From: Cyanobium sp. N.Huapi 1H5
GTDB lineage: Bacteria; Cyanobacteriota; Cyanobacteriia; PCC-6307; Cyanobiaceae
Assembly: GCF_024345535.1 (NCBI RefSeq)
Contig: NZ_JAGQBH010000001.1
Span: 124,001 to 188,000, forward strand
DNA: 64,000 nt
Reading direction: 5' to 3'
The notes below the pieces were generated by a model, which made no database searches, was not told where the DNA came from, and saw only the letters and a list, made by a program, of their open reading frames with translations. Position numbers and translations under genes: made by a program. Shown one piece after another: positions 19,792 through 35,108 of the stretch; the first letter of the stretch is position 1, and each line of letters begins with the position of its first letter.

Positions 19792-21219
19792 TCAGGCCGC
19801 CGCCGGCTGCTCCGCCGGGGCCGCCGGGGGATCCTCGGCCCGCTCGGCCCGCTCCAGGCCCACCTCCACGCCCAGGTGCTGGTCGGGCCGGCCGGTGATC
19901 AGCAGGCTGGCCCGTTGCTGGGTGGCGATCATCCACAGCCACTTGGTCAGCAGGGTGAGGCGGTTCTCGTTGGCGGGCATGAAGGCGAGGTGGGCCAGCC
20001 CCCAGAGCAGCCAGCCGAAGGGGCCGGTGAACTTGAGGCCCCGCAGGTCGGCAACGGCGCAGAGGGGGCCGATCACGGCCATGCTGCCGAAGTCGAACCA
20101 GCGGAAGGGGGCCTGGCGCTGACCCGCCAGCTGGGCCAGCAGGTCCTGGGCGACCCAGCCCCCCATCTGCACCGCCGGGCCGGCCATGCCCGGCAGGGGC
20201 TTGCCATCGGCCGTGTGGGAATAGGAGCAGAGATCACCCACCACCCGGATCTCGGGATGGCCGGCGATCGAGAAGTCCGGCTCGACCACCACCCGCCCGC
20301 CGCGGTCGACCGCGCAACCGGTGCGCTCCGCCAGCAGCTTGCCGAGATGGGAGGCCCGCACCCCCGCGCTCCAGCAGATGGTGGCCGCCTCCAGCACCCG
20401 CTCGCCGGGGGTTCCCGGCGCCGGCGCCTTGAAGGCCACCGTCAGCCGGCCGGCCTCGATGCTCTGCACCCGGCCGCCCAGCACCAGCTCCACACCGCGG
20501 GAGACGAGGTAATCGCCGGCCGCTTTGGACAGCGACGGATCCATGGCCCGCAGCAGCCGATCGCCGGGGTCGACGAGCACCACACGGCAGAGCCCGGGGT
20601 CCAGCTGGCGGAAGTCGCGCCGGGCCGCGTGGCGCATCAGCTCGTTGATCGATCCGGCCAGTTCGCAGCCGGAGGGGCCGCCGCCGACCACCACCACCGA
20701 CTGCAGAAAGCGGCAGCGTTCCGGATCCGGGGTCTGCTCCGCCTCCTCCAGGGCCGTCAGCACCCGTCGCCGGATCTCATCGGCGTGCTCGAGGATCTTC
20801 ATCGGCGGCGCCAGTTCCCGCCACTCCTCATGGCCGAAGTAGGTGCTGCCCGAGCCGGTGGCCAGGATCAGGCTGTCGTAACGCAGGCGGCGATCGTTGA
20901 AGACCACCTCCCGGGAAGCGGCATCGAGATCGACCACCTCACCGAGCAGCACCTGCACGTTGGCCGCCTTGGCGAGCAGCAGCCGCAGGGGCGTCGCCAC
21001 ATCCGCCTCGGACACCAGGCCGGAGGCCACCTGATAGAGCAGCGGCTGGAAAAGATTGAAATTCCGCTTGTCCACCAGGGTCACCCGCACCGGCTGGCCG
21101 GCCAGCCGGTGGGCCGCCTTGAGACCCGCAAAACCACCACCCACGATCACCACATGGGGCCAGCTCTTCATCACGGCTTCGCTCGGCTCCAGCTCGAGGA
21201 AGAAGCGTTCCTTCGCCAT
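19792..21219 (-). CDS. ndbB: type II NADH dehydrogenase-like FAD oxidoreductase (NDH-2)
   Basis: 475 residues from the ATG at 21219 (a later ATG at 21171 starts MKSWPHVVIVGGGFAG). Two Rossmann folds: FAD binding at VVIVGGGFAGLKAAHRLAG and the NADH loop VVVVGGGPSGCELAGSINEL; a third motif is VVGDLCSYSHTADGKPLPG; NFNLFQPLLYQVASGLVSEA is the typical NDH-2 segment. A C-terminal amphipathic stretch (LLWGLAHLAFMPANENR, then LLTKWLWMIATQQRASL) fits membrane attachment. NDH-2 passes electrons from NADH to the quinone pool without proton pumping. The gene is divergent from the oxidase operon and may serve the same pool. The symbol is by family only. Confidence 0.85.
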   Translation of the reverse strand: MAKERFFLELEPSEAVMKSWPHVVIVGGGFAGLKAAHRLAGQPVRVTLVDKRNFNLFQPLLYQVASGLVSEADVATPLRLLLAKAANVQVLLGEVVDLDAASREVVFNDRRLRYDSLILATGSGSTYFGHEEWRELAPPMKILEHADEIRRRVLTALEEAEQTPDPERCRFLQSVVVVGGGPSGCELAGSINELMRHAARRDFRQLDPGLCRVVLVDPGDRLLRAMDPSLSKAAGDYLVSRGVELVLGGRVQSIEAGRLTVAFKAPAPGTPGERVLEAATICWSAGVRASHLGKLLAERTGCAVDRGGRVVVEPDFSIAGHPEIRVVGDLCSYSHTADGKPLPGMAGPAVQMGGWVAQDLLAQLAGQRQAPFRWFDFGSMAVIGPLCAVADLRGLKFTGPFGWLLWGLAHLAFMPANENRLTLLTKWLWMIATQQRASLLITGRPDQHLGVEVGLERAERAEDPPAAPAEQPAAA

Positions 21220-21452
21220 CGATGCGGTCCGCGGGATAGCTGAAAGGTAGGGGCAATCTCCCGCCCGGCGAGCCCAGCTCCGCCGGGATGGCGACGTCCT
21301 CACCCACCGGCGGCCAGCGGCGGAGGCCGCCCTGCTGGGGGCCTTCAGCGCCGGGTCGGGGTATCGCCACAAGGCTGTAGCAAAAGATCACAGAGCCAGG
21401 CCGGCCATCCAGGCGCGGCCATGGTGAAGGGGCACTCCCCGGCCGGTGCCCG
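21220..21452. promoter_or_regulatory. 233-bp divergent control region between NDH-2 and the oxidase operon
   Basis: The region has no protein-like frame. It must hold the promoters of both the NDH-2 gene (minus) and the long plus-strand oxidase operon. A local AT-rich stretch (ggctgtagcaaaagatcaca, near 21373-21392) is the best place for a core promoter, but no clear -35/-10 pair could be fixed. Confidence 0.35.
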
Positions 21453-21950
21453 ATGCAGCAACTGCTGCCAGCCCTCAATGATCACAACCTGCCCTGGATG
21501 GACACCATCCATCCGATCGTGGTCCACTTCGTCATCGCCATGGCGGTGATCAGCGTGGTCTTCGATCTGATCGGTGTCGTGCTGCGGCGGCCGAATCTGT
21601 TTGAAGTCAGCTTCTGGAATCTGCTGTTCGCCACCGGAGCCATCTTCGTGGCGATCATCTTCGGCCAGGTGGAGGCGGGCCTGGCCGATCCCTATGGCGC
21701 CTCCCGGACAATCCTCAATCTGCACAGCACCCTGGGATGGTCGTTGGCCGGCATCCTCTCGGTGCTCACCGGCTGGCGCTACGTGCTGCGCAACCGGGAC
21801 CCCGAGAGCCTGCCGCTGCCCTTCCTGGCCGCCGGCGGGGTGCTGGCCGCGCTGGTGGTGGTGCAGGTCACCCTCGGTAACCAGCTCATCTGGGTGTACG
21901 GGCTGCACACGGTGCCGGTGGTGGCCGCCGGACGGGCCGGGCTGATCTGA
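21453..21950 (+). CDS. DUF2231 membrane protein, first gene of the oxidase operon
   Basis: 165 residues, four hydrophobic helices. The DUF2231 pattern starts WMDTIHPIVVHFVIAMAVIS (the conserved HPxxVHF), followed by a His/Glu-containing helix pair around ILNLHSTLGWSLAGILSVLT. His residues inside the membrane suggest heme or metal binding, but this is not proven. It overlaps the next DUF2231 gene by one base (TGATG) and is the first gene of a chain leading into subunits II, I and III of a terminal oxidase. Confidence 0.82.
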   Translation: MQQLLPALNDHNLPWMDTIHPIVVHFVIAMAVISVVFDLIGVVLRRPNLFEVSFWNLLFATGAIFVAIIFGQVEAGLADPYGASRTILNLHSTLGWSLAGILSVLTGWRYVLRNRDPESLPLPFLAAGGVLAALVVVQVTLGNQLIWVYGLHTVPVVAAGRAGLI

Positions 21951-22573
21951 TGGCCCCCTCCGTGCTCCAGGCCGAGGCCCCGATCCAGCAGCTGGGCGAC
22001 TGGCTGGGGCCCAACGGCCTGCCCTACAGCCTGCCCATCCACCCGAATCTGGTCCACTTCACGATCGGCCTGTTCGTGATCGCCATCGCCTTCGACGTCG
22101 TCGGCGCCCTCTACCCGATCGAGAAGCGGGTGTTCCGCTTCCTGGCCCTGCCGATCACCCGGGCCGGCTTCCACGACGTGGGCTGGTACAACCTGCTCGC
22201 CTGCGCCATCGTCAGTTTCTTCACCGTGGCGACGGGCTTCTTCGAGATGCTGCTGGCGGTGCCGCTTCCCGGCGTCACCAGCAGCATCGGCCTCCAGAGC
22301 ATGGAAACCATGCTCTGGCATGGCGTCGGCGGGGTGGCGATCCTGCTGGCGATCATCGCCATGACCGTCTGGCGCGGCTACCAGCGCTTCCTCTGGCGCC
22401 GGGACATGGGGCGCCAGGTGCAGTGGCTGTACCTGCTGGTGGGCCTGGCCCTGTTCCTGGTGATCGGCCTGCACGGCACCCTCGGGGCCGAACTGGCGGC
22501 TGAATTCGGCGTCCACATCACCGCCGACCAGCTCCTGGCCAACGGTGCCGACCTCCGCGACGCCCTTCCTTGA
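21950..22573 (+). CDS. DUF2231 membrane protein, second copy
   Basis: 207 residues with the same HPNLVHFTIGLFVIAIAFDV start as its neighbour, so the two are paralogues. Further helices contain GWYNLLACAIVSFFTVATGF and METMLWHGVGGVAILLAIIA, with membrane His residues as in copy one. Copy two is about 40 residues longer, with an N-terminal amphipathic piece and a C-terminal soluble tail. It lies 13 bp before subunit II. DUF2231 proteins next to oxidase subunits probably help assembly or act as extra heme/quinone subunits; this is inference from position. Confidence 0.82.
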   Translation: MAPSVLQAEAPIQQLGDWLGPNGLPYSLPIHPNLVHFTIGLFVIAIAFDVVGALYPIEKRVFRFLALPITRAGFHDVGWYNLLACAIVSFFTVATGFFEMLLAVPLPGVTSSIGLQSMETMLWHGVGGVAILLAIIAMTVWRGYQRFLWRRDMGRQVQWLYLLVGLALFLVIGLHGTLGAELAAEFGVHITADQLLANGADLRDALP

Positions 22574-22586
22574 GGGCCCCCCTGCC

Positions 22587-23525
22587 ATGACTTCCGCACC
22601 CCCGCGTCGCCCCAGCCCCATTGCCCTGGTCGCCCTGGCCCTCTGGGTGGGGCTGTTGGTGCTGATCAGCCTCTGGGTGGCGGGGCAGTCGCTCCGCTGG
22701 CTGCCGGTCCAGGCCTCCAATGCCGCCCCACTGGTGGACGGTCTGTTCAGCTTCGAGACCGGCGTCGGCACCTTCGTGTTCCTGGGGGTGATCTCGGTGA
22801 TGGCCTGGGTGATGCTCGTGCACCGGGCCGAGAAGTACGACGAGAGCGACGCCGAGCCGATCGAGGGCAACACCCGCCTCGAGGTGATCTGGACCGCCAT
22901 CCCCCTGGTGCTGGTGATGGCCATCGCCTGGTACGCCATTCAGGTGAACACCCAGCTCGGCGTGCTGGGGCCGATGGAGCACATCCATCTGAGCGATCCC
23001 CAGCCGATGACGATGGGCTCCGCGAAGGGCCCGGGGCCAGCTGAAGACATTGAGGTGATCGCCCGGCAGTGGTCGTGGGAGTTCCGCTACCCCGCCGAGC
23101 ACGTCTCCAGCACCGAGCTGCACCTGGAGCTGGATCGGCCGGTCACCTTCCGCCTGGTCTCCGAGGACGTGCTGCACGGCTTCTTCATCCCGGCCTTCCG
23201 GCTCAAGCAGGACGTGATCCCTGGCCGGGCGATCGATTTCAGCCTCACCCCCACCCGGCTCGGGCGCTACCGCCTGCGCGATTCCCAGTTCAGCGGCACC
23301 TGGTTCGCCGCCAATCAGGCCGATGTGGTGGTCGAGACCGCCGCAGACCATGCCGCCTGGCTGAAGCAGGCCGCCGCCGCCCCCCTGCAGCCGGGCCTCA
23401 GCGTCGCGGCCGACGAGTACGCCGACCGCCAGACCAACCCCCGCGGCGGCTGGCCCACGGTGGTGCCGGCCCCCCCGCCCCAGGTGAACGCCCCCGGTTC
23501 CAGCTCCCTTCCCCACGACGCCTGA
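22587..23525 (+). CDS. ctaCII: cytochrome oxidase subunit II, ARTO type (no Cu-A site)
   Basis: 312 residues from the ATG at 22587. Two N-terminal helices (about 11-34 and 60-78, with a further hydrophobic stretch at 100-120) and a cupredoxin domain with ARQWSWEFRYPAE (159-171) and SEDVLHGFFIPAFRLKQDVI (192-211). One Cu-A His is kept (H197). The Cu-A loop at 232-243 reads DSQFSGTWFAAN, where the usual ligands would be Cys, Glu, Cys, His and Met: they are Asp232, Gln234, Ser236, Phe240 and Asn243. This loss is the mark of the cyanobacterial alternative respiratory terminal oxidase, thought to oxidise plastoquinol and not cytochrome c. It starts 13 bp after a DUF2231 gene and ends 4 bp before subunit I. 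Confidence 0.93.
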   Translation: MTSAPPRRPSPIALVALALWVGLLVLISLWVAGQSLRWLPVQASNAAPLVDGLFSFETGVGTFVFLGVISVMAWVMLVHRAEKYDESDAEPIEGNTRLEVIWTAIPLVLVMAIAWYAIQVNTQLGVLGPMEHIHLSDPQPMTMGSAKGPGPAEDIEVIARQWSWEFRYPAEHVSSTELHLELDRPVTFRLVSEDVLHGFFIPAFRLKQDVIPGRAIDFSLTPTRLGRYRLRDSQFSGTWFAANQADVVVETAADHAAWLKQAAAAPLQPGLSVAADEYADRQTNPRGGWPTVVPAPPPQVNAPGSSSLPHDA

Positions 23526-23529
23526 GGCC

Positions 23530-25200
23530 ATGACCAGCACCGCCCTCTCCCCCGAACCGCCCGCCTCCTGGCGGCGTTACTTCGGCTTCAGCACCGATGC
23601 CAAGGTGATCGGCATCCAGTACATCGTGGTGGCCTTCTTCTTCTTCCTGGTGGGTGGCCTGCTGGCCATGATCATGCGGGGCGAACTGATCACACCCGAG
23701 GCCGATCTGGTGGATCGCACCGTGTACAACGGCCTCTACACGATGCACGGAACGATCATGCTGTTCCTGTTCATCTTTCCCGTTCTCAACGGGCTCAACA
23801 ACCTGCTGATTCCCACCATGATCGGTGCCCCCGACATGGCCTTCCCGCGGCTGAACACTGCCGCCTTCTGGCTGGTGCCGGTGTTCGGCACCCTGCTGAT
23901 CGCCAGCTTCTTCGTGCCCAGCGGCCCGGCCACCTCCGGCTGGTGGTCCTACCCGCCGGTGAGTCTCCAGAACCCCCTCGGTCACCTGATCAACGGCGAG
24001 TTCCTCTGGGTGCTGGCGGTGGCGCTCTCCGGCGTCTCCTCGATCATGGGGGCGGTGAACTTCGTCACCACGATCCTGCGGATGCGGGCGCCGGGGATGG
24101 GCTTCTTCCGCATGCCCGTGTTCTGCTGGACGGCCCTGGCCGCCCAGACCCTGCAGCTGATCGGCCTGCCCGCCCTCACCGGCGGCGCCGTGATGCTGCT
24201 GATGGATCTGAGCGTCGGCACCTCGTTCTACCGGCCGGAAGGGGGCGGCGATCCGGTGCTCTATCAGCACTTCTTCTGGTTCTATTCCCACCCGGCGGTG
24301 TATGTGATCATCCTGCCGGTGTTCGGCATCTTCTCGGAGCTGTTTCCCGTCTATTCCCGCAAGCCCCTGTTCGGCTACGTCTATGTTTGCCTGGCCTCCT
24401 TCATCATCGTCGGCCTGGGGCTGATCGTCTGGGTGCACCACATGTTCCCCAGTGGCGTCACCCAGTGGATGCGCAACCTGTTCATGGTCACCACGATGCT
24501 GATCGCCGTGCCCACCGGTGTGAAAGTGTTCGCCTGGCTTGGCACCCTATGGCGTGGCAAGATCCGGCTCACCACCCCGATGCTGTTCTGCCTCGGCGGC
24601 CTGTTCAACTTCGTCTTCGCCGGCATCACCGGCATCATGCTGGCCACCGTGCCGATCGACATTCACGTCAGCAACACCTACTTCGTGGTGGGACACTTCC
24701 ACTACGTGATCTATGGCGCGGCCGTCATGGGCGTGTTCGCCGCCATCTACCACTGGTTCCCCAAGTTCACCGGCCGCATGCCCTACGAGGGCCTCGGCAA
24801 GCTGCACTTCCTGCTCACGTTCGTGGGCGCCAACCTCAACTTCCTGCCCATGCACCCCCTCGGTCTGATGGGCATGCCCCGGCGGGTCTCCTCCTACGAC
24901 CCGGAGTTCGCCTTCTGGAACGTGCTGGCCAGCCTGGGGGCCTTCCTGCTGGGGGTCTCGATCATCCCCTTCCTGCTCAACATGATCAGCTCCTGGGCCC
25001 GGGGTCCCAAGGCCCCGCACAACCCCTGGAACGCCATCGGCCTGGAGTGGCTGCTGCCGTCACCCCCGGCGGAGGACAACTTCGGCGAGCACGTGCCCAC
25101 CGTGATCAGCCGTCCCTACGGCTACGGCACGGGTGAACCCCTGGTGGAGCACCAGGCGGAGATCGAGCGAGCCCTCACCCTTCAGGAGGCCAACCGATGA
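23530..25200 (+). CDS. ctaDII: cytochrome oxidase subunit I, heme-copper type
   Basis: 556 residues, twelve helices. All ligands are seen: His73 in TMHGTIM (low-spin heme), His254 and Tyr258 in YSHPAVY (Cu-B and the cross-linked Tyr), His303/His304 in WVHHMF (Cu-B), and His389/His391 in VGHFHYV (high-spin and low-spin hemes). The helix VI motif YSHPAVY, without the Glu of A1-type enzymes, fits the A2 class. It should therefore be an active, proton-moving O2 reductase even though subunit II has no Cu-A. It overlaps subunit III by 4 bp (ATGA). Confidence 0.96.
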   Translation: MTSTALSPEPPASWRRYFGFSTDAKVIGIQYIVVAFFFFLVGGLLAMIMRGELITPEADLVDRTVYNGLYTMHGTIMLFLFIFPVLNGLNNLLIPTMIGAPDMAFPRLNTAAFWLVPVFGTLLIASFFVPSGPATSGWWSYPPVSLQNPLGHLINGEFLWVLAVALSGVSSIMGAVNFVTTILRMRAPGMGFFRMPVFCWTALAAQTLQLIGLPALTGGAVMLLMDLSVGTSFYRPEGGGDPVLYQHFFWFYSHPAVYVIILPVFGIFSELFPVYSRKPLFGYVYVCLASFIIVGLGLIVWVHHMFPSGVTQWMRNLFMVTTMLIAVPTGVKVFAWLGTLWRGKIRLTTPMLFCLGGLFNFVFAGITGIMLATVPIDIHVSNTYFVVGHFHYVIYGAAVMGVFAAIYHWFPKFTGRMPYEGLGKLHFLLTFVGANLNFLPMHPLGLMGMPRRVSSYDPEFAFWNVLASLGAFLLGVSIIPFLLNMISSWARGPKAPHNPWNAIGLEWLLPSPPAEDNFGEHVPTVISRPYGYGTGEPLVEHQAEIERALTLQEANR

Positions 25201-25799
25201 GCAGCACCCCCGCCACCCCCGCCAGCCCATCCGGGGCCCACGGCGAAGGGCAGCACGCCAACCACAACCTCACTGGCTTCATCATCTTCCTGTGCTCCGA
25301 GAGCGTCATCTTCCTGGCGTTCTTCAGCGGCTATGCCCTCCTGCGTCTCTCCACCATCGACTGGCTGCCCGCCGGCGTGGACGGCCTCGAATGGCGCCTG
25401 CCCCTGATCAACACGGTGGTGCTGGTCTCCAGCTCCTTCACGATGGTGGTGGCCGAGCATTTCAAGGGCAAGGGAAAGATCTGGCTGTTCCGGGGCTTCT
25501 GGTTGCTGACCATGGCCATGGGGGCCTATTTCCTCTACGGCCAGGCGGTGGAATGGCGCGGCCTCAGCTTCGGCTTCACCTCCGGCACCTTCGGCGGCAC
25601 CTTCTATCTGCTCACCGGCTTCCATGGGCTGCATGTGCTCACGGGCATCCTGCTGATGGGCCTGATGCTGGCCAAATCCTTCGTCCCCGGCAACTACGAC
25701 CGGGGTGAAGAAGGCGTCATCGCCACGTCCCTGTTCTGGCACTTCGTGGATGTGATCTGGATCATCCTGTTCGTGCTGCTCTACGTCTGGAGAGCCTGA
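25197..25799 (+). CDS. ctaEII: cytochrome oxidase subunit III
   Basis: 200 residues with five helices, the short bacterial form. Typical are GFIIFLCSESVIFLAFFSGY with its membrane Glu, the middle FTSGTFGGTFYLLTGFHGLH with the conserved His-Gly-x-His, and the last helix SLFWHFVDVIWIILFVLLYV. It completes the three core subunits. The GMC gene starts three bases after its stop. Confidence 0.95.
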   Translation: MSSTPATPASPSGAHGEGQHANHNLTGFIIFLCSESVIFLAFFSGYALLRLSTIDWLPAGVDGLEWRLPLINTVVLVSSSFTMVVAEHFKGKGKIWLFRGFWLLTMAMGAYFLYGQAVEWRGLSFGFTSGTFGGTFYLLTGFHGLHVLTGILLMGLMLAKSFVPGNYDRGEEGVIATSLFWHFVDVIWIILFVLLYVWRA

Positions 25800-25802
25800 A
25801 CC

Positions 25803-27317
25803 ATGATCATCGACGACACCCACTACGACGTGATCCTGATCGGCAGCGGCGCCGGTGGGGGCACCCTGGCCGCCGCCCTCGCCGACGGTGGTCACACCGT
25901 GCTGTTGCTGGAGCGCGGTGGGGTGATGCCCCAGGCCGATCAGAACGTCGCCGAGGTGGGGCTGTTCCGCAAGCCGCGGTACCACCCCGAGGAGAAGTGG
26001 TTCGGCACCGACGGTGACCCCTTCTCCCCCCAGATGGTGCACGCCGTCGGCGGCAACACCAAGATCTGGGGTGGCGTGCTGGAACGCATGCGGGAAGCGG
26101 AGTTCACCGGCGTGGCGCTCCAGGAGGGACCGTCCCCGGACTGGGAGCTGCGCTACGACGACCTGGCCCCCTGGTACGCGCAGGCCGAAGCGCTTTACCG
26201 GGTCCATGGGGTGGCCGGTGCCGATCCCACCGCCCCGGCGATGCAGGGCCCCTACCCCGCCAAGCCGCGGCCGGTGGAACCGTTCCTGGTGGAACTGCGG
26301 GCCGCCCTGGAGCGCCAGGGGCTCCATCCCTACGACCTGCCCCTGAGCTGGTCCGACTCGGCGGTCGATCCCACCGGCGATGCGGAGCTGTTCGGGGTGG
26401 ATCCGGCGCGGGGCTCCAGCACCGTGACGGTGCGGGAGAACGCCCGGGTGGTGCAGCTGCACGTCAACCCGTCGGGCCAGGAGGTGCGCGGCGTCGAGGT
26501 GGAGATCGACCACCAGCGCTGGCTGTTCCGCAGCCACCAGGTGGTGCTGGCCGCCGGGGCCATCGGCACGCCGGAGATCCTGCTCCGTTCCGCCACCGAT
26601 CACCACGCCCGCGGCCTGGCCAACGGCTCCGACCAGGTGGGGCGCAACCTGATGAAGCCCCAGCTCACCTCGATCCTGCAGCTGGCGGCCGCCCCCAACT
26701 CGGGCCGCTACGGCCGGGGCCATGGCATCACCGACTTCTACTGGGGCGACAAGAACGTCGACTTCCCCCTCGGTTCGATCCAGAGCGGCGGCGGGGTGCT
26801 CCAGGACGCCCTGTTCGCCGAGTCGCCGCCGGTGCTCTCCCTGGTGACCCGCCTGCTGCCAGACTTCGGCCTTGAGCAGCTGGCCGCCCGTTCGATCACC
26901 TGGTGGGCGATGAGCGCCGTGCGGCCCGATCCCCACAACCGGGTCGCCCTGCGGGGCCAGCAGCTGCAGGTCCACTACACGGCCAACAACCGCGAAGCCC
27001 ACGACCGGCTCGTCTACCGCTGGATCGACTGCCTCAAGGCCGTGGAGGCCGACCCCCTGACCCTGGTCGCCAAGGCCGCCCCCACCCATCCCCGCGGCGA
27101 GGCGCCCCTGCCGGTGATCGGCGGCGCCTGCGGCACCTGCCGCATGGGCTCGGATCCGGCCACCTCGGTGGTGGATCTGCAGGGCCGCAGCCACGAGGTG
27201 GCCAACCTCTGGATCGTCGACGCCAGCGTGCTGCCCTCCTGTCCGTCGGTGGGGGTGGGGCTCACGGTGATCGCCAATGCCCTGCGCATCGGCGCCGCCC
27301 TGAAGGCGTCCCTATGA
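25803..27317 (+). CDS. GMC-family flavoprotein lacking the usual catalytic pair
   Basis: 504 residues, no signal peptide. The FAD fold is clear: DVILIGSGAGGGTLAAALAD at the start, VVLAAGAIGTPEILLRSATD in the middle, and a C-terminal NLWIVDASVLP with LTVIANALRIG. In GMC oxidoreductases the active site has a His in H-x-x-G-T-C-R and a His or Asn ahead of the last helix. Aligned with the paralogue at 30022, these are Gly441 (GACGTCRMG) and Gly484 (SVGVGLT). The Cys-rich segment of the paralogue is also missing. It may be a non-catalytic partner, have a changed substrate, or be an electron-transfer subunit. It is translationally coupled to the glucosidase gene (ATGA). Confidence 0.88.
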   Translation: MIIDDTHYDVILIGSGAGGGTLAAALADGGHTVLLLERGGVMPQADQNVAEVGLFRKPRYHPEEKWFGTDGDPFSPQMVHAVGGNTKIWGGVLERMREAEFTGVALQEGPSPDWELRYDDLAPWYAQAEALYRVHGVAGADPTAPAMQGPYPAKPRPVEPFLVELRAALERQGLHPYDLPLSWSDSAVDPTGDAELFGVDPARGSSTVTVRENARVVQLHVNPSGQEVRGVEVEIDHQRWLFRSHQVVLAAGAIGTPEILLRSATDHHARGLANGSDQVGRNLMKPQLTSILQLAAAPNSGRYGRGHGITDFYWGDKNVDFPLGSIQSGGGVLQDALFAESPPVLSLVTRLLPDFGLEQLAARSITWWAMSAVRPDPHNRVALRGQQLQVHYTANNREAHDRLVYRWIDCLKAVEADPLTLVAKAAPTHPRGEAPLPVIGGACGTCRMGSDPATSVVDLQGRSHEVANLWIVDASVLPSCPSVGVGLTVIANALRIGAALKASL

Positions 27318-30025
27318 CGGCCAGCGTCCCCAGCCGCGCCGCCATCGACGCCATCACCCCGTCGGAAACCCGGCGCATGGCCGAGCGCGACCACGGCCTC
27401 GCCCCCTGGAGCCTCTGGGGCAGCTACCTGAGCGAGCGCCAGTGGGGAACCGTGCGCGAGGACTACTCCGCCGACGGCGACGCCTGGCGCTCCTTCCCCC
27501 ACGACCACGCCCGCTCCCGCGTCTACCGCTGGGGCGAGGACGGCCTGCTGGGCCTCTGCGACGACCAGTGCCGCCTCTGCTTCTCCCTCGCCCTCTGGAA
27601 CGGCGTGGACCCGATCCTCAAGGAACGGCCCTTCGGCCTCGGCAACCCCGAAGGCAACCACGGCGAGGATCTCAAGGACTACTTCTTCCACCTCGCCAAC
27701 ACCCCGACCCACAGCTTCATGCGGGGGCTGTACAAGTACCCGCAGCGGGAGTTCCCCTACACCGACCTGCTGGCGGAGAACGGCCGCCGCGGCCGCGACC
27801 AGCCCGAGTATGAACTGGTCGACACGGGCATCTTCGACGACAGCCGCTATTTCGATGTCCTCATCGAGTACGCCAAGGCGGGACCGGAGGACCTGCTGAT
27901 CCGGATCCGGGCCACCAACCGCGGCCCCGATCCCGCCCCCCTCACCCTGTTGCCCAGCCTGTGGCTGCGCAACACCTGGCGCTGGGGCTACCCCGATGAG
28001 GTCGAGCGCCGGATCCGCCCCCTCGGTGACGCCGGCGGTCCTTCGATCGTCACCGATGCCCTGCCCCACCTGGGGGTCTACCAGCTCGACTGCCGGGAGC
28101 CCGGCACCTGGATCTTCACCGACAACGAAACCAACAGCGAGCGGCTCTGGGACCAGCCCAACGCCACACCCTTCCAGAAGGACGGCTTCCATCGCCATGT
28201 GGTCGACGGCGAGGCCGGTGCGGTGAATCCGGCCCTGGAGGGCAGCAAGGCGGGGCGTGTGCTGCAGCGCACCCTGGCCGCCGGCGAGGAGTGGGTGGTG
28301 GAGCTGCGCCTGCATCGGATCGACGGCCCCGCACCCGGCCCGGCCGAGCTCGGAGATACGTTCGAGGCGATCTTCAGCGAGCGCGAGCGGGAGTGGCTGG
28401 AGTACTTCGACCATCGGGTGCCGGGGCTGTCCGAGGACGATCGCCGCATCCACCTGGCGGGCACCGCCGGGCTGCTCTGGTGCAAGAAGTACTACGGCTG
28501 GAGCGTGATGCGCTGGCTGGAGGGGGACCCCACCGGGACGCCCCCGCCGGCCGAGCGGCGCCACACCCAGAACGCCTTCTGGCAACGGCTGCACGCCCAC
28601 GACGTGATCTCGATGCCGGACTGCTGGGAGTACCCCTACTTCTGCCAGTGGGATCTGATGTTCCACTCCGTCGCCTTCGCCGTCTTCGATCCGGCCACGG
28701 CCAAGGAGCAGTGCATGCTGCTGCGCAAGCCCCAGTACACCGCCCCCAACGCCCAGACCCCCGCCTACGAGTGGGCCCTGTCCGACCCCAATCCCCCGAT
28801 CGGCGCCTGGGCGGCGATGCGCATCTATCAGATCGATCGCAAGAACAGCGACGCCGCCGATCTGGCCTTCCTGCGCGCCGCCCTGCGCAAGCTGATCCTG
28901 GAGTACGGCTGGTGGGCGAACCGCAACGACCGCTCCGGCGACAACGTGTTCGAGGGGGGATTCCTGGGGCTCGACAACATCGGCGTGTTCGATCGGCGCT
29001 TCCCCCTGGCCGACGGCAGCATCATCGAGCAGTGCGACGGCACGGCCTGGATGGCCTCGCTCAGTCTCAACCTGCTGCAGATCGCCGTGGAGCTGAGCCG
29101 CGAGGAACCGGAGTACGCCGACATCTGCGAGCGGTTCGTGGTGGATTTCGTGCAGCTGGCCATCGGCCTCAACAATCCCGCCGGCCGCAACTACCTCAAC
29201 TGGGACGAGGAGGACGGCTTCTACTACGACGTCATCAAGCGGCCCGACGGCAGCGTCGACTATCTGCGCACCCGTTCACTCTCGGGCCTGGTGCCCCTGC
29301 TGGCGGTGCAGAGCTTCGACATCGACACCGTGGCGCGGTTGCCGATGCTCGATGTCACCCACACCCTGGCCTGGTTCACCCATGAGCGCACCACGCCCTC
29401 CTGGATCGTGGAGAACCTGGGAATCTGGAACAACGATCGGGTGCTGTTCACCCTGGTGCCCCGGGAGCGCCTGCAGCGCATCTGCGAGCGGCTCTTCGAT
29501 GAGGAGGAGTTTCTCTCCCCCTACGGCATCCGCTCCCTCTCCAAGGTGTATGCGCAGCACCCCTACACGTACACCGAAGGCAGCCAGAGCCAGACGCTCG
29601 CCTACAGCCCGGCCGACAGTCCCGTGGCCATGTTCGGGGGCAACTCCAACTGGCGCGGACCGGTGTGGATGCCGATGAACTTCCTGCTGATCGAATCGCT
29701 GCAGAAGTTCGCCCATTTCTACGACGACAGCTTCAAGGTGGAGTTCCCCACCCGCTCGGGCCACTGGATCACGCTGTGGCAGGCCTCCCTGGAGCTGGAG
29801 AAGCGGCTGGTGGGGCTGTTCCGCCGCGACGGCCAGGGCCGACGCCCCTTCAATGGCGCGGTGGAACTGTTCCAGAGCGATCCCCACTGGCGCGATCTGA
29901 TCCTGTTCAACGAATACTTCCACGGCGACAATGGCCGTGGCGTCGGCGCCTCCCACCAGACCGGCTGGAGCGCCATGGTCTGCAAGATGCTCAACCAGCT
30001 CAACCGCTACCCCATCCAGCCATGA
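27314..30025 (+). CDS. MGH1/GH63-like glucosidase
   Basis: 903 residues. The N-terminal part has APWSLWGSYLSERQWGTVRE followed by DYSADGDAWRSFPHDHARSR, the hallmark of a widespread bacterial 'glucosidase' family related to mannosylglycerate/glucosylglycerate hydrolases. The (alpha/alpha)6 barrel carries MPDCWEYPYFCQWDLMFHSV (probable acid Asp) and MFGGNSNWRGPVWMPMNFLL, the GH63-type WRGPVW motif. It should release glucose or a close sugar from a small glucoside; the substrate is not known, and glucosylglycerate-type osmolytes are only one option. No signal peptide, so cytoplasmic. It overlaps the GMC genes on both sides by ATGA. Confidence 0.9.
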   Translation: MTASVPSRAAIDAITPSETRRMAERDHGLAPWSLWGSYLSERQWGTVREDYSADGDAWRSFPHDHARSRVYRWGEDGLLGLCDDQCRLCFSLALWNGVDPILKERPFGLGNPEGNHGEDLKDYFFHLANTPTHSFMRGLYKYPQREFPYTDLLAENGRRGRDQPEYELVDTGIFDDSRYFDVLIEYAKAGPEDLLIRIRATNRGPDPAPLTLLPSLWLRNTWRWGYPDEVERRIRPLGDAGGPSIVTDALPHLGVYQLDCREPGTWIFTDNETNSERLWDQPNATPFQKDGFHRHVVDGEAGAVNPALEGSKAGRVLQRTLAAGEEWVVELRLHRIDGPAPGPAELGDTFEAIFSEREREWLEYFDHRVPGLSEDDRRIHLAGTAGLLWCKKYYGWSVMRWLEGDPTGTPPPAERRHTQNAFWQRLHAHDVISMPDCWEYPYFCQWDLMFHSVAFAVFDPATAKEQCMLLRKPQYTAPNAQTPAYEWALSDPNPPIGAWAAMRIYQIDRKNSDAADLAFLRAALRKLILEYGWWANRNDRSGDNVFEGGFLGLDNIGVFDRRFPLADGSIIEQCDGTAWMASLSLNLLQIAVELSREEPEYADICERFVVDFVQLAIGLNNPAGRNYLNWDEEDGFYYDVIKRPDGSVDYLRTRSLSGLVPLLAVQSFDIDTVARLPMLDVTHTLAWFTHERTTPSWIVENLGIWNNDRVLFTLVPRERLQRICERLFDEEEFLSPYGIRSLSKVYAQHPYTYTEGSQSQTLAYSPADSPVAMFGGNSNWRGPVWMPMNFLLIESLQKFAHFYDDSFKVEFPTRSGHWITLWQASLELEKRLVGLFRRDGQGRRPFNGAVELFQSDPHWRDLILFNEYFHGDNGRGVGASHQTGWSAMVCKMLNQLNRYPIQP

Positions 30026-31662
30026 GCATCCCCTCCCCCAGCGCCGCCATCGCCGGTCCGAGCCTGCACAGCTCGCCCCTGCCGGAGGCGGCCCAGCTGG
30101 AGGTGAGCCACGGGGCCCACTTCGATGTGGTGATCATCGGCAGCGGCGCCGGCGGCGGCACCCTGGCCCGCCACCTGGCGCCGACGGGCCTGAAGGTGCT
30201 GGTGCTGGAGCGGGGCGACTGGCTGCCCCAGGAGCCCCAGAACTGGGACGCCGAAGCGGTGTTCCAGCAGAACCGCTACGTGTCGAAGGATCCCTGGCTC
30301 GACAAGCACGGCAAGCCCTTCCAGCCCGGCAGCCATTACTTCGTCGGCGGCGCCACCAAGATGTACGGCGCCGCCCATTTCCGCCTGCGCCAGCAGGACT
30401 TCGAGGAGCTCGCCCACTTCGACGGCACCTCGCCGGCCTGGCCCCTGCGCTACGCCGACTTCGAGCCCTGGTACCAGCAGGCCGAGGAGATGTACCACGT
30501 GCACGGCCAGCGCGGTGAGGATCCCACCGAGCCGCCCTGCAGCGGCCCCTATCCCCATCCGCCGGTGGCCCACGAGCCGCGGATGCAGCAGCTGGTCGAC
30601 GACCTGCGCTCCGCCGGGCTCCATCCCTTCCACGCCCCCAGCGGCGTCCAGCTGGATGAGGCCCACATGGCCTTCAGCCGCTGCCGCAAGTGCAACTGCT
30701 GCGATGGCTTCCCCTGCCTGGTGCACGCCAAGTCGGATGCGGAGGTGCTGGGCATCCGGCCGGCCCTGGCGCAGCCGAACGTGTCCCTGCTGACGCGGGC
30801 CCAGGTGAAACGGCTGCTCACCGATGAATCCGGTCGCACGGTGAAGGCGGTGGAACTGGAGCGGGACGGCGAACCGCTGACGGTGAGCGGTGATGTGGTG
30901 GTGGTGAGCTGCGGCGCCGCCAACAGCGCCCGGCTGCTGCTGTTGTCGGCCAACGACCGCCATCCCCGGGGCCTGGCCAACGGCTCCGACCAGGTGGGTC
31001 GCCACTACATGTTCCACAACAGCAAGGCGATGGTGGCCCTGGCCCATGAGCCGAACCGCACCATCTTCCAGAAAACGGTGTCGATCAACGACTGGTATCT
31101 CGGGGATGCCGACTTCGACTACCCGATGGGCAACATCCAGATGACGGGCAAGACCAACGGCACGATCATGAAGGGCTACGCGCCACTGGAAACCTTCCTG
31201 ATGCCCGGCTGGAGCATGGACAAGATCGCCGAACATGCGCTCGACTTCTGGATCTCCAGCGAGGATCTCCCCGATCCGAACAACCGCGTGACCGTGACCG
31301 GATCGGGCCAGATCCAGCTCAGCTACACCCCCAACAACCTCACCGCCTCGGCCCGCCTGGTGAGCCGTCTGGAGGGCCTGCTGGATCGCCTCTATCTGCG
31401 CCAGCACCTGGTGGAGCGCCAGTTCTATATCGCCAACAGCATGGGCATCGCCGCCGTGGGCCACCAGGCCGGCACCTGCCGCTTCGGCAGCGATCCGGCC
31501 ACCTCGGTGCTCGACCTCAATTGCAAGGCCCACGAGCTCGACAACCTCTACGTCGTCGATACCAGCTTCATGCCGACGATCGGCGCCGTGAACCCGTCCC
31601 TCACCGCCATCGCCAATGCCCTGCGGGTGGGCACCCACCTGGTGGAACGGCTGCGGGGCTGA
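30022..31662 (+). CDS. GMC-family sugar/alcohol dehydrogenase-like flavoprotein, canonical copy
   Basis: 546 residues. FAD loop VVIIGSGAGGGTLARHLAPT (36-55), a substrate/FAD loop HYFVGGATKMYGAAHFRL (105-122), and a C-terminal active site with His481 (GHQAGTCRFG) and Asn524 (AVNPSLT), the usual GMC His/Asn pair. Residues 221-232 hold a cysteine cluster (Cys 221, 224, 226, 227, 232) of the kind seen in quinone- or cytochrome-linked bacterial GMC dehydrogenases; it could bind a metal or FeS centre, but this is not proven. No signal peptide. It is probably the active dehydrogenase of the operon, giving electrons to the quinone pool. The upstream overlap is ATGA, and 8 bp separate it from the next gene. 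Confidence 0.9.
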   Translation: MSIPSPSAAIAGPSLHSSPLPEAAQLEVSHGAHFDVVIIGSGAGGGTLARHLAPTGLKVLVLERGDWLPQEPQNWDAEAVFQQNRYVSKDPWLDKHGKPFQPGSHYFVGGATKMYGAAHFRLRQQDFEELAHFDGTSPAWPLRYADFEPWYQQAEEMYHVHGQRGEDPTEPPCSGPYPHPPVAHEPRMQQLVDDLRSAGLHPFHAPSGVQLDEAHMAFSRCRKCNCCDGFPCLVHAKSDAEVLGIRPALAQPNVSLLTRAQVKRLLTDESGRTVKAVELERDGEPLTVSGDVVVVSCGAANSARLLLLSANDRHPRGLANGSDQVGRHYMFHNSKAMVALAHEPNRTIFQKTVSINDWYLGDADFDYPMGNIQMTGKTNGTIMKGYAPLETFLMPGWSMDKIAEHALDFWISSEDLPDPNNRVTVTGSGQIQLSYTPNNLTASARLVSRLEGLLDRLYLRQHLVERQFYIANSMGIAAVGHQAGTCRFGSDPATSVLDLNCKAHELDNLYVVDTSFMPTIGAVNPSLTAIANALRVGTHLVERLRG

Positions 31663-31670
31663 GGGTGGCC

Positions 31671-32966
31671 ATGGGCACGCCGGAGGACACCTCGGAGCGG
31701 CGGGTGCTCGTGGCCCTGGGCACCGCCTGGGCCCTGACGGCCGGCTGGTTCCTGTTCTGGCCGGTGCCCACCGAGGTGGTCGGCCGGGGGGTGGTGATCG
31801 TGCCCGGCGGCGCCACGGTGATCGATTCCCGGGCCGAGGGCCAGATCCTCAGCCTGCCGGTGCGGGAGGGCCAGCGGGTGAGCCGGGGCCAGACCCTGGT
31901 CCGCCTCTACCTGCCCACCCTGGAGCAGCAGCTGCGCCGCCAGGAGAAGGACCTGGCGGAACTGATCCGCATCAACGCCGATCTCGACCGCCGCGACCGG
32001 GCGCGGCTGGCCTCGGCCCGGCGGCTGCGGGACACCGCCCTGGCCCAGCTGGAGGGCAACCGGGGGCGCCTGGACGCCCTGCGCCGGGTCTACGACCAGA
32101 AGGTGGCCGATTTCCGCCATCTGGCCCACCGCGAGGTGGTGGCCCCGCTGGCCGCCGAAGTGGTGGCCAGCGAGGACCGGGCCATCCAGCTCGACAACAG
32201 CGTCGCCGAACTGGGCATCCGCGAACGGGAGGCCATCGACGCCTGGGAGAAGGTCCGGCTCGCCATCGACACCGAAGCCCAGCGGCGGCGCTTCGCCATC
32301 GAGGACGCCCGCCGCGCCGTCCGGGTCACCCAGACCCGCCTCGCCTACGACGGCACCCTCACCGCCACCCGGGACGGGCGGCTGCTCGATCTGCAGGTGG
32401 TGCGGGGCCAGACGGTGAAGCCCGGGCAGCGCCTCGGCACCCTGGGGAGCCCCCGGGCGGACCGCAGCGACGCCGATGGCGGCGGCCAGGCCCTGCAGGC
32501 GGTGGCCTACTTCGCCCCGGCCGATGCCCGCCGCCTGCGCCCCGGCCTGGCCATGGAGGTGGTGCCCGACTGGAACGAGCGGGGCCGCTTCGGCGGCATC
32601 CGCGGCCGCGTCCGCAACATCAACCTGCTGCCCGCCACCCGCGAGGACGTCGACACCACCATGGGCAACCCCCAGCTGGCGGAGGCTCTGGTGCGCAACG
32701 GGCCGGTGATGCGCACCGAGATCGCCCTGCTGCCCGCCGCCGGCGGCTCCGGCCTCGACGGCTATCGCTGGACCCTCAGCCGCGGCAGCAGCGTCTTTCC
32801 GATCCGCGAGGGGCTGACGCTCAAGGCCCACGGCTATGTCGAATGGCGTCCACCGGTCAGCTACCTGCTGCCGCTGCTGCGCGACCTCACCGGCAGCTAC
32901 CGCACCCTGCGCCAGCAGGAGCGCCAGGACCAGCCGCCCCTGCGGCAGCGGGAGGCCCTGCCATGA
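31671..32966 (+). CDS. membrane-fusion (HlyD-like) protein of the NHLP bacteriocin-secretion type
   Basis: 431 residues from the ATG at 31671 (a GTG six bases upstream is possible). One N-terminal membrane helix (about 14-31), a biotinyl-lipoyl-like half (SRAEGQILSLPVREGQRVSR), a long coiled coil with PTLEQQLRRQEKDLAELIRI (to about residue 225), the second lipoyl half (TATRDGRLLDLQVVRGQTVK) and a C-terminal part with NPQLAEALVRNGPVMRTEIA and WTLSRGSSVFPIREG. This C-terminal pattern is that of NHLP-type secretion adaptors that serve peptidase-containing ABC exporters. No such exporter and no leader peptide gene is in the window; a TolC-like gene is next door. It is the ninth gene of the oxidase operon. 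Confidence 0.8.
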   Translation: MGTPEDTSERRVLVALGTAWALTAGWFLFWPVPTEVVGRGVVIVPGGATVIDSRAEGQILSLPVREGQRVSRGQTLVRLYLPTLEQQLRRQEKDLAELIRINADLDRRDRARLASARRLRDTALAQLEGNRGRLDALRRVYDQKVADFRHLAHREVVAPLAAEVVASEDRAIQLDNSVAELGIREREAIDAWEKVRLAIDTEAQRRRFAIEDARRAVRVTQTRLAYDGTLTATRDGRLLDLQVVRGQTVKPGQRLGTLGSPRADRSDADGGGQALQAVAYFAPADARRLRPGLAMEVVPDWNERGRFGGIRGRVRNINLLPATREDVDTTMGNPQLAEALVRNGPVMRTEIALLPAAGGSGLDGYRWTLSRGSSVFPIREGLTLKAHGYVEWRPPVSYLLPLLRDLTGSYRTLRQQERQDQPPLRQREALP

Positions 32967-33178
32967 CCCGGGAACTGCCCTGGCTGGTGCTGGAGGCGGC
33001 CCTGCTGATGGTGCTGCTGCACGCCAATGCCCCGGAGGTGTGGTTCTGGTTCGCCGCCCTGCTGGTGCTGCTGCTGTGGCGCTCCTTCGCCTGGCGCCAG
33101 CGCCGCTGGCAGCGGCTGCAGCAACGGCAGGACGACACTCAGGAGCCGCCCAGCACCAGCGGCAGCGCCACCGGCTGA
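32963..33178 (+). CDS. small membrane protein ending the oxidase operon
   Basis: 71 residues: a hydrophobic stretch LPWLVLEAALLMVLLHANA and a Trp-rich second one VWFWFAALLVLLLW, then a basic segment RSFAWRQRRWQRLQQRQ and a polar tail. The ATG overlaps the adaptor stop (ATGA), and the end overlaps, antisense, the last 40 bp of the TolC-like gene. It may be an assembly factor or small subunit of the adaptor complex. I do not recognise a named family. Confidence 0.65.
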   Translation: MTRELPWLVLEAALLMVLLHANAPEVWFWFAALLVLLLWRSFAWRQRRWQRLQQRQDDTQEPPSTSGSATG

Positions 33179-34839
33179 TCGGGCCGATCCGGCACCGGCA
33201 GCAGTTCGCGCAGCAGCTGGGCATAGCTGACATTGGCCAGGGTGGTGGATTCGGCCACCCCCTCCATCGCCCCGGTCAGGGTGGCGACGGTGTCGGCCAC
33301 ATCGCTGTAGTCGGCCAGCCCCAGCTGGTAGCGGGCCCGCACGTCACGGAAGGCCTCGCGGGAGGCGCTGTAGGAGGCGCGGGCCGCCACGATCTGGCGC
33401 AGGGCGGCCCGATGGTCGTAGAAGGCGGCCTCGAGGCGCTGGCGGATGGCGTTGCGCTCCCGGGCCAGCTGCTGGTCGGTGCGGGCGGCGGCGCTGCGGC
33501 TGGCGGCCACGGCGCCAGCGGTGACGCCGCCGTCGAAGAAGCGCCAGTGCAGCTGCAGGCCCGCCGCCCAGTCGGAGCGCTGGTTCAGCAGCTGGGGGAT
33601 GAGGGCCGAACTGCAGCAGCCCTCCAGCCGGATCACGGGCTGCGTGATCAGCCCCTGGCCGTAGCCGCCGGTGGCCACCAGCCGCACGCTGGGCAGCAGT
33701 TCGGCGGCGCGGCGGTCGGCCTGGCGCAGCAGGGCGTCACGGGCGGCCTGCAGGGCCCGCAGCTGGGGGTTGTCCTGCCAGCCGCGCACGATCGTCTGCT
33801 CCAGATCGAGGGGCCAGGGGGGCTGCAGCCGCACCGCATCGCTGGCCCGCAGGCTGACGTCGAAGGGCACGTTGATCAGGTTGCTGAGCTGGCGCTGGCG
33901 ACTCAGCTGCAGGGCTTCCGCCTGCTCGAGGCGATAGCGGCTCTGCTGCAGGACGGCCTCGGCCCGGAGCCGGTCCAGCCGCGGCACCAGGCCCCCCTGC
34001 TGGAGCGCCGCCACCTGGTCGCGCACCACCGTGTCGCTGTCGACGACGGCCCGGCGGATCCGCAGCAGCTGGTCGGCGAGCTGCAGGCCGTAGTAGGCGA
34101 TGCTCACATCCAGCTGCAGCTGGCGCAGCCGATCGGCATAGCGCTGGCGGGAGGCCTTGAGGCTGTCGTCGGCCTCGGCGATGGCGGCGGCGCGGTAGGG
34201 GCTGAGAAGCTCCCAGGCCAGCTCCACCCGGGCGGCCGCCGCCCCGACGTTGGACTGCACCACATTCCAGCCCTGGTTGCGGACCAGAAACGGGGAGCCC
34301 GCCGGATAGATGCCGGCGTTGTCGGTCCACACCTGGTTGTAGGAGCGCTGCTGGCTGAAGCCGCCCGCCAGGTTCAGGCCCAGCTCCGGCCAGCGGCGCC
34401 CCCGGGCCGAACCGGCCAGGTCCTGCTGCTCGCGCACGCCGAGCCCGGCGGCGGCCAGATCGGGGTCGTTGCGCACGGCCACCGCCAGGGCCTCGACCAG
34501 GCTGAGCCGCTGGCGCCGTGCGATCCGCACCGCCTCGGGTTCCTGGGGCAGGGCCGTCGCCGCGGGCGCCGGCAGCGACGGATCGGTCAGGCCTGGGAGG
34601 GTGGGGTCCGGCCCCCCGGTGACGTCGGCCTCGGGCGCGGCGGGCAACAGGGTGCGGTCGAGCCGTTCGAGGTCCTCCTGAAACCCCTGGAGGCTGCGCA
34701 GCAGCGCCGGGGAGGGGGGCGGCAGGCGGCGGGGCCGGGGGGCGGCGATCAGCTCCTGGCCCCAGGCCTGGGCCATCGGTGCCGCCAGCGCCAGGCCCAG
34801 GGCCGGGGCCAGGCAGCGTCGGAGCTGACGCCGGATCAC
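33139..34839 (-). CDS. TolC-like outer-membrane efflux protein
   Basis: 566 residues from a GTG at 34839 that overlaps the previous stop (GTGA). The signal peptide is RRCLAPALGLALAAPMAQA. A 60-residue Pro-rich linker follows, then two outer-membrane-efflux repeats: LVEALAVAVRNDPDLAAAGL with AAAARVELAWELLSPYRAAA, and DLEQTIVRGWQDNPQLRALQ with GLQLHWRFFDGGVTAGAVAA; alpha-barrel helices end ARYQLGLADYSDVADTVATL. Such proteins form the outer channel of tripartite pumps and type I secretion. It faces the adaptor gene at 31671 tail to tail, so adaptor and channel are neighbours but not one transcript. Confidence 0.9.
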   Translation of the reverse strand: MIRRQLRRCLAPALGLALAAPMAQAWGQELIAAPRPRRLPPPSPALLRSLQGFQEDLERLDRTLLPAAPEADVTGGPDPTLPGLTDPSLPAPAATALPQEPEAVRIARRQRLSLVEALAVAVRNDPDLAAAGLGVREQQDLAGSARGRRWPELGLNLAGGFSQQRSYNQVWTDNAGIYPAGSPFLVRNQGWNVVQSNVGAAAARVELAWELLSPYRAAAIAEADDSLKASRQRYADRLRQLQLDVSIAYYGLQLADQLLRIRRAVVDSDTVVRDQVAALQQGGLVPRLDRLRAEAVLQQSRYRLEQAEALQLSRQRQLSNLINVPFDVSLRASDAVRLQPPWPLDLEQTIVRGWQDNPQLRALQAARDALLRQADRRAAELLPSVRLVATGGYGQGLITQPVIRLEGCCSSALIPQLLNQRSDWAAGLQLHWRFFDGGVTAGAVAASRSAAARTDQQLARERNAIRQRLEAAFYDHRAALRQIVAARASYSASREAFRDVRARYQLGLADYSDVADTVATLTGAMEGVAESTTLANVSYAQLLRELLPVPDRPDQPVALPLVLGGS

Positions 34840-35108
34840 GGTTGCCGGGCCCCGCCGGAGGCCCCCGGTGGGGCGGCAGGAGGTGCCACCGGCGGGGGGG
34901 CTGTGCTGTGGTCCTGGGTCAGATCGTGGAGTCCCAGACTGGTGCGGGCCAGGCAGCCGATCGAGAAGCAGATCGCCGCACTGCCGAACAGCCCCAGCTG
35001 GGCCTGGCGGGTCTCCCCCTGGATGCGGGTCATCGCCAGCAGCACCACCCCGGCGGCCAGCCAGGGCAGGGTGACGACCAGGCCAAGCTGGGATCGGGTC
35101 ATCGGCAT
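34836..35108 (-). CDS. small membrane protein with FGxAAICFSIGC motif, copy A
   Basis: 90 residues from the ATG at 35108 (a second ATG at 35102). Two hydrophobic helices: LVVTLPWLAAGVVLLAM and LFGSAAICFSIGCLA, then a Pro/Ala-rich tail. It shares GLFGxAAICFSIGC with the gene just upstream, so they are paralogues. Coupled to the previous gene by ATGA and to the TolC-like gene by GTGA. Function unknown; position suggests a part of the export apparatus. Confidence 0.68.
   Translation of the reverse strand: MPMTRSQLGLVVTLPWLAAGVVLLAMTRIQGETRQAQLGLFGSAAICFSIGCLARTSLGLHDLTQDHSTAPPPVAPPAAPPGASGGARQP

Follow-up and report, generated by a model that had tools for sequence, protein, structure and literature searches.

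Where does a heme-copper oxidase that is without the CuA center obtain its electrons? The question is posed by a row of ten genes in the freshwater picocyanobacterium Cyanobium sp. N.Huapi 1H5, found in a stretch of 64,000 nucleotides (contig NZ_JAGQBH010000001.1, positions 124,001 to 188,000; the window, whose own numbering is used throughout). Here the genes of such an oxidase run on into those of two GMC flavoproteins, GMC1 and GMC2, with a glucosidase of the glycoside hydrolase type (GH) between them. The first six genes, DUF2231-DUF2231-oxidase II-I-III-GMC1, form what we read as an old predicted operon, the published type-1 alternative respiratory terminal oxidase (ARTO) with a sixth gene added. 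To judge from the sequences GMC1 likely works together with the oxidase. Our preferred reading, with a probability of about 0.4, is a type-1 ARTO that has GMC1 as its partner and is fed in picocyanobacteria by sugar oxidation through GH and GMC2. The row of oxidase, GMC1 and sugar genes would in this way suggest where the CuA-less oxidase may get its electrons.

An earlier description of this DNA, made from the letters alone (the sequence-only reading), had ten plus-strand genes in this order, with gaps of at most 13 bp and repeated ATGA overlaps, and it is confirmed by open reading frame calls, the DNA itself and Pfam/NCBIfam profiles (21453-33178; Table 1). The widest gap inside the row is 13 bp, and ATGA overlaps occur at COX1/COX3, GMC1/GH, GH/GMC2 and HlyD/small protein. 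In a simple scan of 20900-33700 on both strands there are seven terminator-like sites, against 3.2 expected from shuffles, and none lies between any two genes of the row. We read the ten genes as three layers of different age, comprising the oxidase with GMC1, GH with GMC2, and HlyD with the small protein.

The first layer extends a known system. According to PMC6616624 the type-1 ARTO (Qox, Cox3) operon of Anabaena sp. PCC 7120 is alr2729-alr2730-coxB3-coxA3-coxC3, that is two small genes followed by subunits II, I and III, as in the window, and in both systems subunit II is without CuA. The two DUF2231 genes of the window match the place of alr2729 and alr2730, which from their position would be DUF2231 genes too. 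Where the published operon has five genes, the window adds a GMC flavoprotein, and then GH and GMC2. Given that five genes were published, a GMC1 companion could have been missed there. We found no report in the open-access literature of a GMC protein joined to a cyanobacterial terminal oxidase, nor of GMC1 as a sixth gene linked to the type-1 ARTO operon; a mention could be missed.

How constant is the sixth gene? A class-wide search covered 291 genomes, 171 of which gave GMC1-like matches at E <= 1e-30, GMC2-like proteins among them. The GMC1 set was taken as the best 132 rows, from 128 genomes, and removal of three GMC2-type rows left 127 genomes. Subunit II of the CuA-less type gave at least 150 matches in 143 genomes, listed down to E 1.5e-74, and the counts that follow are among the matches listed. 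GMC1 lies within 10 kb of such a subunit II in at least 109 of the 127 GMC1 genomes, with a median start-to-start distance of 3861 bp. Conversely, 111 of the 150 subunit II matches have GMC1 within 10 kb, one of these partners being actually GMC2. Beyond the 109, two genomes (G118 and G207) are also linked on inspection (L163, L165), and in two more (G250 and G133) GMC1 is away from the oxidase within the stretches inspected. Both genes occur in 121 of the 291 genomes, the oxidase only in 22, GMC1 only in 6 and neither in 142 (p about 4e-50, with no kinship correction). One of the oxidase-only genomes, G073, has a related GMC protein in the GMC1 slot (L208). The six-gene order is present in 19 of the 20 first-inspected GMC1-centered stretches, and both the order and its spread are well supported.

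The same order, with a GMC protein in the slot, is found on Nostoc edaphicum pNe_5 and on plasmid A of Trichormus variabilis ATCC 29413; these two ARTO-GMC loci (the pair L195 and L196) are an oxidase island on plasmids. On both, cytochrome bd-type (cydAB-type) genes come after ARTO-GMC, with BlaI/M56 and FeoB at the flanks, and plasmid A is typed as conjugative. Genus g33 of family f23 often carries GMC1 together with ARTO. If g33 were Microcystis this would contrast with PMC13232611, in which neither of two Microcystis strains is reported to have a conserved ARTO.

GMC1 is an eroded flavoprotein. It retains the FAD fold, and its AlphaFold model (mean pLDDT 83.9) has fructose and glucose dehydrogenases as nearest folds. 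When 66 GMC1 and 103 GMC2 sequences are aligned together, each sorted by which window protein it matches best, the catalytic Asn is present in none of the GMC1 sequences (one gapped) against 101 of GMC2 (two gapped), and the catalytic His in 6 against 101 (two gapped). The four Cys occur in no GMC1 sequence and in 99 to 100 of GMC2 per column; searched for as a pattern, the motif is in 0 of 65 GMC1 and 98 of 102 GMC2 sequences. This pattern of residue loss and retention is well supported. A stricter statement, that the catalytic His is gone from every GMC1, is rejected on the six that keep it. The gene is nonetheless under purifying selection, as indicated by dN/dS values of 0.146 and 0.151 in two comparisons. 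No signal peptide was seen by eye. The sequence-only reading had made both GMC proteins sugar dehydrogenases, in a complete branch from glucoside through free sugar, flavoprotein and plastoquinol to O2. GMC2 fits such a branch, but GMC1 is without the catalytic Asn and nearly always without the His, and in 7 of the 14 genomes of the window's family that carry it GMC1 stands with the oxidase without a GH match. That GMC1 is a second sugar dehydrogenase is accordingly unlikely, equivalence of the two proteins as dehydrogenases is rejected on the catalytic residues, and we hold the branch as then drawn to be very improbable. Lacking the catalytic residues of its relatives, GMC1 is most likely an electron-input or assembly subunit for the oxidase. 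If it is a subunit, it offers a handle by which to purify and assay the complex.

Might GMC1 instead be an enzyme of some other chemistry, acting on a lipid, a carotenoid or a heme precursor so as to build or tune the oxidase, with the sugar genes secondary? Its classical catalytic site is degenerate and it has conserved residues of its own that are not common to GMC2 (H61, E64, H400, D401 and R402), both of which would fit. Its nearest folds, however, are the sugar dehydrogenases, and electron transfer is favored by the four Cys, which are still present in the oxidase-linked GMC proteins of L195, L196 and L208; these three have Asn for the catalytic His and Ser for the Asn. Within the oxidase-linked set they branch first, and the 70 rows that remain are held together with support 100 (a quick tree, SH-aLRT only), so that the catalytic pair was seemingly lost first and the Cys motif later. 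We consider such other chemistry unlikely. Among known systems a parallel exists in MftG, a GMC protein that mycofactocin connects with the respiratory chain. The likeness is that of a GMC protein linking a donor to respiration; the NCBIfam match scores 76 bits, far under the cut-off of 387, and is not a member by score.

The oxidase has kept its core. H73, H254, Y258, H303, H304, H389 and H391 of subunit I, which we take to be heme and CuB ligands, are kept in at least 97% of 70 sequences. CuA-loop cysteines are found in none of 67 aligned subunit II sequences, in agreement with the earlier description of an oxidase without CuA. The best solved matches to subunit I are the cytochrome c oxidases 7rh5 and 6adq, ahead of the aa3-600 and bo3 quinol oxidases. 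In PMC6616624 the CuA-less cyanobacterial enzymes are called plastoquinol oxidases, and it is described as unclear whether they have further subunits. A 16-base pattern taken from the upstream region of Anabaena cox3 had no match in 174 loci.

The DUF2231 proteins may contribute more than their annotation as membrane proteins conveys. His 20, 25, 91 and 152 of protein A are present in 65 of 65 sequences; of 67 protein B sequences all have His 31, 36 and 124, and 66 have His 189. Judged by eye from hydropathy and charge, these histidines would all face the same side of the membrane, probably the outer or lumenal one. As a guess they could form a heme or metal site, by which DUF2231 becomes a candidate cofactor protein; no solved relative of protein A was found in a structure search. 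A bolder scheme would make the type-1 ARTO flavin-fed, not a plain quinol oxidase. GMC1 would be an electron-carrying, integral pseudo-dehydrogenase subunit, four-His hemes or metals of the DUF2231 proteins would replace CuA, and the operon of picocyanobacteria would make it into a sugar oxidase chain complete in itself, with NAD(P)H bypassed. We think it improbable that all of this holds.

What, then, could the sugar genes supply? GMC2 was proposed from its sequence as a sugar dehydrogenase, and it remains a good candidate. Its nearest solved proteins are FAD-glucose and fructose dehydrogenases, and with those of Burkholderia cepacia and Gluconobacter, respectively, the latter membrane-bound, it shares the FAD motif, the catalytic His/Asn pair and the place of the Cys cluster; GMC1 has their fold without the pair or the Cys motif. 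The CxxCxxCxxxxC motif of GMC2 aligns with CC-x4-C of the solved enzymes, where it may hold a putative Fe-S cluster. For GH the profile PF03200 scores 38.6 bits (cut-off 22.4), and its model, of modest confidence (mean pLDDT 68.8), is nearest to GH63 enzymes, processing alpha-glucosidase I and E. coli YgjK, at 12-15% identity. D575 and E867 are invariant in 13 sequences, and they fall opposite the acids of 4j5t only in non-significant alignments. A GH match occurs in 163 of the 291 genomes (E <= 0.001).

The company of GMC2 elsewhere fits a sugar setting. Islands of its relatives hold SDR, GH15, G6PD or gluconolactonase genes. GH, GMC2 and SDR genes occur together in loci of Chlamydiae, Planctomycetes, Microvirga and Acetobacteraceae, several actinobacterial loci have GMC2 with G6PD and GH15, and in cyanobacterial islands there are also genes for MIP (aquaporin), glyoxalase/VOC and glycogen debranching. 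The lactonase, GH15, SDR and VOC genes that accompany GMC genes point to oxidation of free sugar to lactone. Picocyanobacterial GMC2 is 60-65% identical to copies from Chlamydiae and actinobacteria against 50-56% to the best copies from other cyanobacteria, and to go by these identities a transfer between phyla may have taken place. No ARTO genes were found in the first GH/GMC2-centered stretches of other cyanobacteria (L134-L151 and L153). Among seven later stretches, picked for nearby matches, L201 and L203 hold ARTO genes together with genes of the GH/GMC2 module. L201 (G084) has SDR, GH, MIP, GMC2, NDH-2-like and ARTO genes, all on the same strand and spread over some 17 kb; at L203 a single contig carries SDR, VOC and GMC2 as well as oxidase genes.

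Sugar and oxidase genes also meet elsewhere. On a plasmid of Caballeronia sp. SBC2 (L197:1553-14449), the operon for oxidase subunits II, I, 3 and IV, with a subunit II of the ubiquinol-oxidase type, adjoins genes for SDR, GH15, GMC, DoxX, cupin, gluconolactonase and VOC; a Gloeothece plasmid has a similar gene set and no oxidase genes in the stretch. A Chlamydiae contig (L086:3799-11542) has distant relatives of COX2-COX1-COX3 and, separated from them by a few kb that hold other genes, a relative of GMC2.

That the GMC and glucosidase genes stand with the oxidase in relatives was the test set by the sequence-only reading itself. In a scan led by GMC2, which under-samples unjoined cases, the order DUF2231-DUF2231-COX2-COX1-COX3-GMC1-GH-GMC2 recurs on one strand at 36 of 80 loci in genome contigs, with at most 57 bp from GMC1 to GH and at most 235 bp from GH to GMC2 (bounds from tblastn). 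The records are named Synechococcus, Cyanobium, Vulcanococcus, Aphanothece and Microcystis elabens, or are less closely named cyanobacteria, and the other loci are mostly cut contigs or non-cyanobacterial. The long-flank set consists of 39 loci, each at least 20 kb long and matched by GMC2, including the non-cyanobacterial L082, L086 and L087. GH is present at 37 of these, GMC1 at 34, COX1 at 33, NDH-2 at 24, SDR at 20, VOC at 15, and HlyD and the small protein at 13 each; none of GH, GMC1, COX1, NDH-2, SDR, VOC and HlyD was found in 20 stretches of the window's genome taken as controls. A sample chosen by GMC1 rather than led by GMC2, the 14 genomes of the window's family that carry it, has GMC1 joined to GH in 5, at 8-9 kb in 2 and without a GH match in 7. 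Thus the tie between sugar genes and oxidase stands in so far as the eight-gene order recurs, and is narrower than proposed, being confined as a joined unit to one clade and to 5 of the 14 family genomes.

For the preferred reading we infer the electron-transfer steps, the substrate and any complex as follows. GH would cleave an internal alpha-glucoside and so free a sugar, probably glucose, and GMC2 would oxidize it. Electrons from GMC2 would pass by the presumed Fe-S cluster, with plastoquinone or GMC1 as their acceptor; GMC1 would serve the oxidase on the cytoplasmic side as its electron-input or assembly subunit, and the oxidase would pass electrons to O2. That the oxidase is fed by GH and GMC2 is plausible from their co-location in one clade, and a route from sugar through GMC2 and quinone to O2 is likewise plausible. 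The picocyanobacterial row would then add a candidate donor, internal sugar, and carbon would be burned without NAD(P)H being made in that step.

Several observations weigh against this reading. The oxidase operon occurs without GMC1 in family f32, which accounts for 15 of the 22 oxidase-only genomes among the matches listed; the four f32 loci inspected (L154-L157) have the five-gene order, as published for Anabaena PCC 7120. HetR_C, looked at as a mark of heterocyst formers, is present in 16 of 16 f32 genomes tested and also in 5 of 6 others. At L128 an NDH-2-like gene precedes a GMC1-bearing operon, so the two flavoproteins are not mutually exclusive. Such genes also lie beside or inside the ARTO operon at L161 and L162, with no GMC1 in the stretch, and by it at L201 and L204, in stretches that end at COX3 or COX1; a flavoprotein near the oxidase is thus a repeated theme, in a few loci, and this point speaks for the reading. 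Replacement of GMC1 by NDH-2 was rejected, being seen only in L161 and L162 and with both genes present at L128. Concerning the donor, at the positions of the bo3 quinol site, presumably R71, D75, H98 and Q101, the window subunit I has V, L, V and G. Nostoc subunit I is likewise without the four residues in an alignment with two plasmid cyoB proteins, which keep R, D, H and Q. Plastoquinol, the donor of the sequence-only reading, is therefore a candidate that these residues do not support; a different site is possible. The fructose and FAD-glucose dehydrogenase complexes have cytochrome c and small subunits, and Pfam finds no gene for either among the ten of the row. Outside the window's family subunit II and GMC2 form 71 pairs within genomes; 2 of these fall within 20 kb against an expected 0.47, and in one of them the GMC gene is that of the GMC1 slot. 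L203 is outside this count. Repeated independent linkage of sugar islands to ARTO was dropped as statistical support on these figures.

The modules also come apart among picocyanobacteria. In two genomes (L065/L173 and L066/L172) they are separate, and a second ARTO copy at L059:3500-7200 is decayed, with DUF2231 broken, COX2 and most of COX1 gone and the end of GMC1 lost, while the GH and GMC2 frames are open. The genome of L059 has a further six-gene operon elsewhere. Together these cases show that GH-GMC2 does not need a neighboring oxidase, and they count on the same side as the points above. They fit an explanation by co-regulation only, in which the oxidase, with GMC1 as an assembly or maturation factor, and GH-GMC2 merely share the conditions of their use and GMC2 has some other acceptor. 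GH and GMC2 are moreover away from the oxidase in L134-L151, L153 and other phyla. On the other hand, ATGA overlaps tie GMC1, GH and GMC2 to one another in the window, and the eight-gene order has short gaps in all 36 loci of the GMC2-led scan. We regard co-regulation only as a real, if tentative, possibility.

The joining itself can be followed in a series of states, as the two modules of picocyanobacteria are found apart, 8-9 kb apart (L123, L124) or joined. In a first tree of 66 GMC1 rows and 7 outgroup rows the 45 joined rows lie on one side of a branch with support 96. With seven rows added there is a 48-row clade, again with support 96, made up of the 45 joined rows and 3 that are apart, for which the simplest reading is one joining and two break-ups. 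A single joining without break-up, as the first tree suggested, was displaced by the additional rows. Thus GH-GMC2 probably joined behind GMC1 once, in Cyanobium-type picocyanobacteria.

Table 1. Genes of the row and of its surroundings, in window coordinates.
Feature	Position	Strand	Profile evidence
DUF2231 membrane protein A	21453..21950	+	PF09990 123.8 bits
DUF2231 membrane protein B	21950..22573	+	PF09990 130.6 bits
COX2, heme-copper oxidase subunit II without CuA cysteines	22587..23525	+	PF02790, PF00116
COX1, heme-copper oxidase subunit I with conserved heme and CuB ligands	23530..25200	+	PF00115 514.7 bits
COX3, oxidase subunit III	25197..25799	+	PF00510 104.3 bits
GMC1, GMC-fold flavoprotein, catalytic His/Asn replaced, without four-Cys motif	25803..27317	+	
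GH, MGH1-like/GH63-like glucosidase, 903 aa	27314..30025	+	PF22422, PF03200 above cut-off
GMC2, GMC dehydrogenase that has the His/Asn pair and a motif of the CxxCxxCxxxxC type	30022..31662	+	
HlyD, NHLM-type adaptor, accessory	about 31668-32966	+	TIGR03794 165.4 bits, cut-off 156.2
Small hydrophobic protein, 71 aa, accessory	32963..33178	+	
TolC-like outer membrane efflux protein, convergent with the accessory pair	33139..35244	-	PF02321 140.3 bits
NDH-2-like pyridine nucleotide-disulphide oxidoreductase, divergent	19792..21243	-	PF07992 154.1 bits
SDR, glucose 1-dehydrogenase-like	18974..19780	+	PF13561 215.3 bits; NF005559 237.2, cut-off 215
VOC/glyoxalase-like protein	16869..17849	-	PF00903 58.4 bits

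Around the core, the NDH-2 and the glucose-dehydrogenase-like SDR that had been noted upstream are both in place; for the NDH-2-like gene the profile PF22366 (NDH2_C) gives 22.9 bits, under its cut-off of 27.7. At the other end, the adaptor had been called NHLP-type, and it passes the NHLM profile. The cognate NHLM ABC transporter profile TIGR03797 reaches at best 421.8 bits in the same genome, below its cut-off of 709.4, no other transporter models having been tried. HlyD is present in 14 of the 36 eight-gene loci at looser coverage. The row as one unit stands for its first eight genes, which recur together; the adaptor and small protein, found at only 13 of the 39 long-flank loci, do not belong to the core, and with TIGR03797 not reached in the genome the ten genes as one functional unit were rejected. 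The small protein gene overlaps the TolC-like gene by 40 bp at their 3' ends (33139-33178), and HlyD and the small protein may form with the TolC-like gene an export path of their own.

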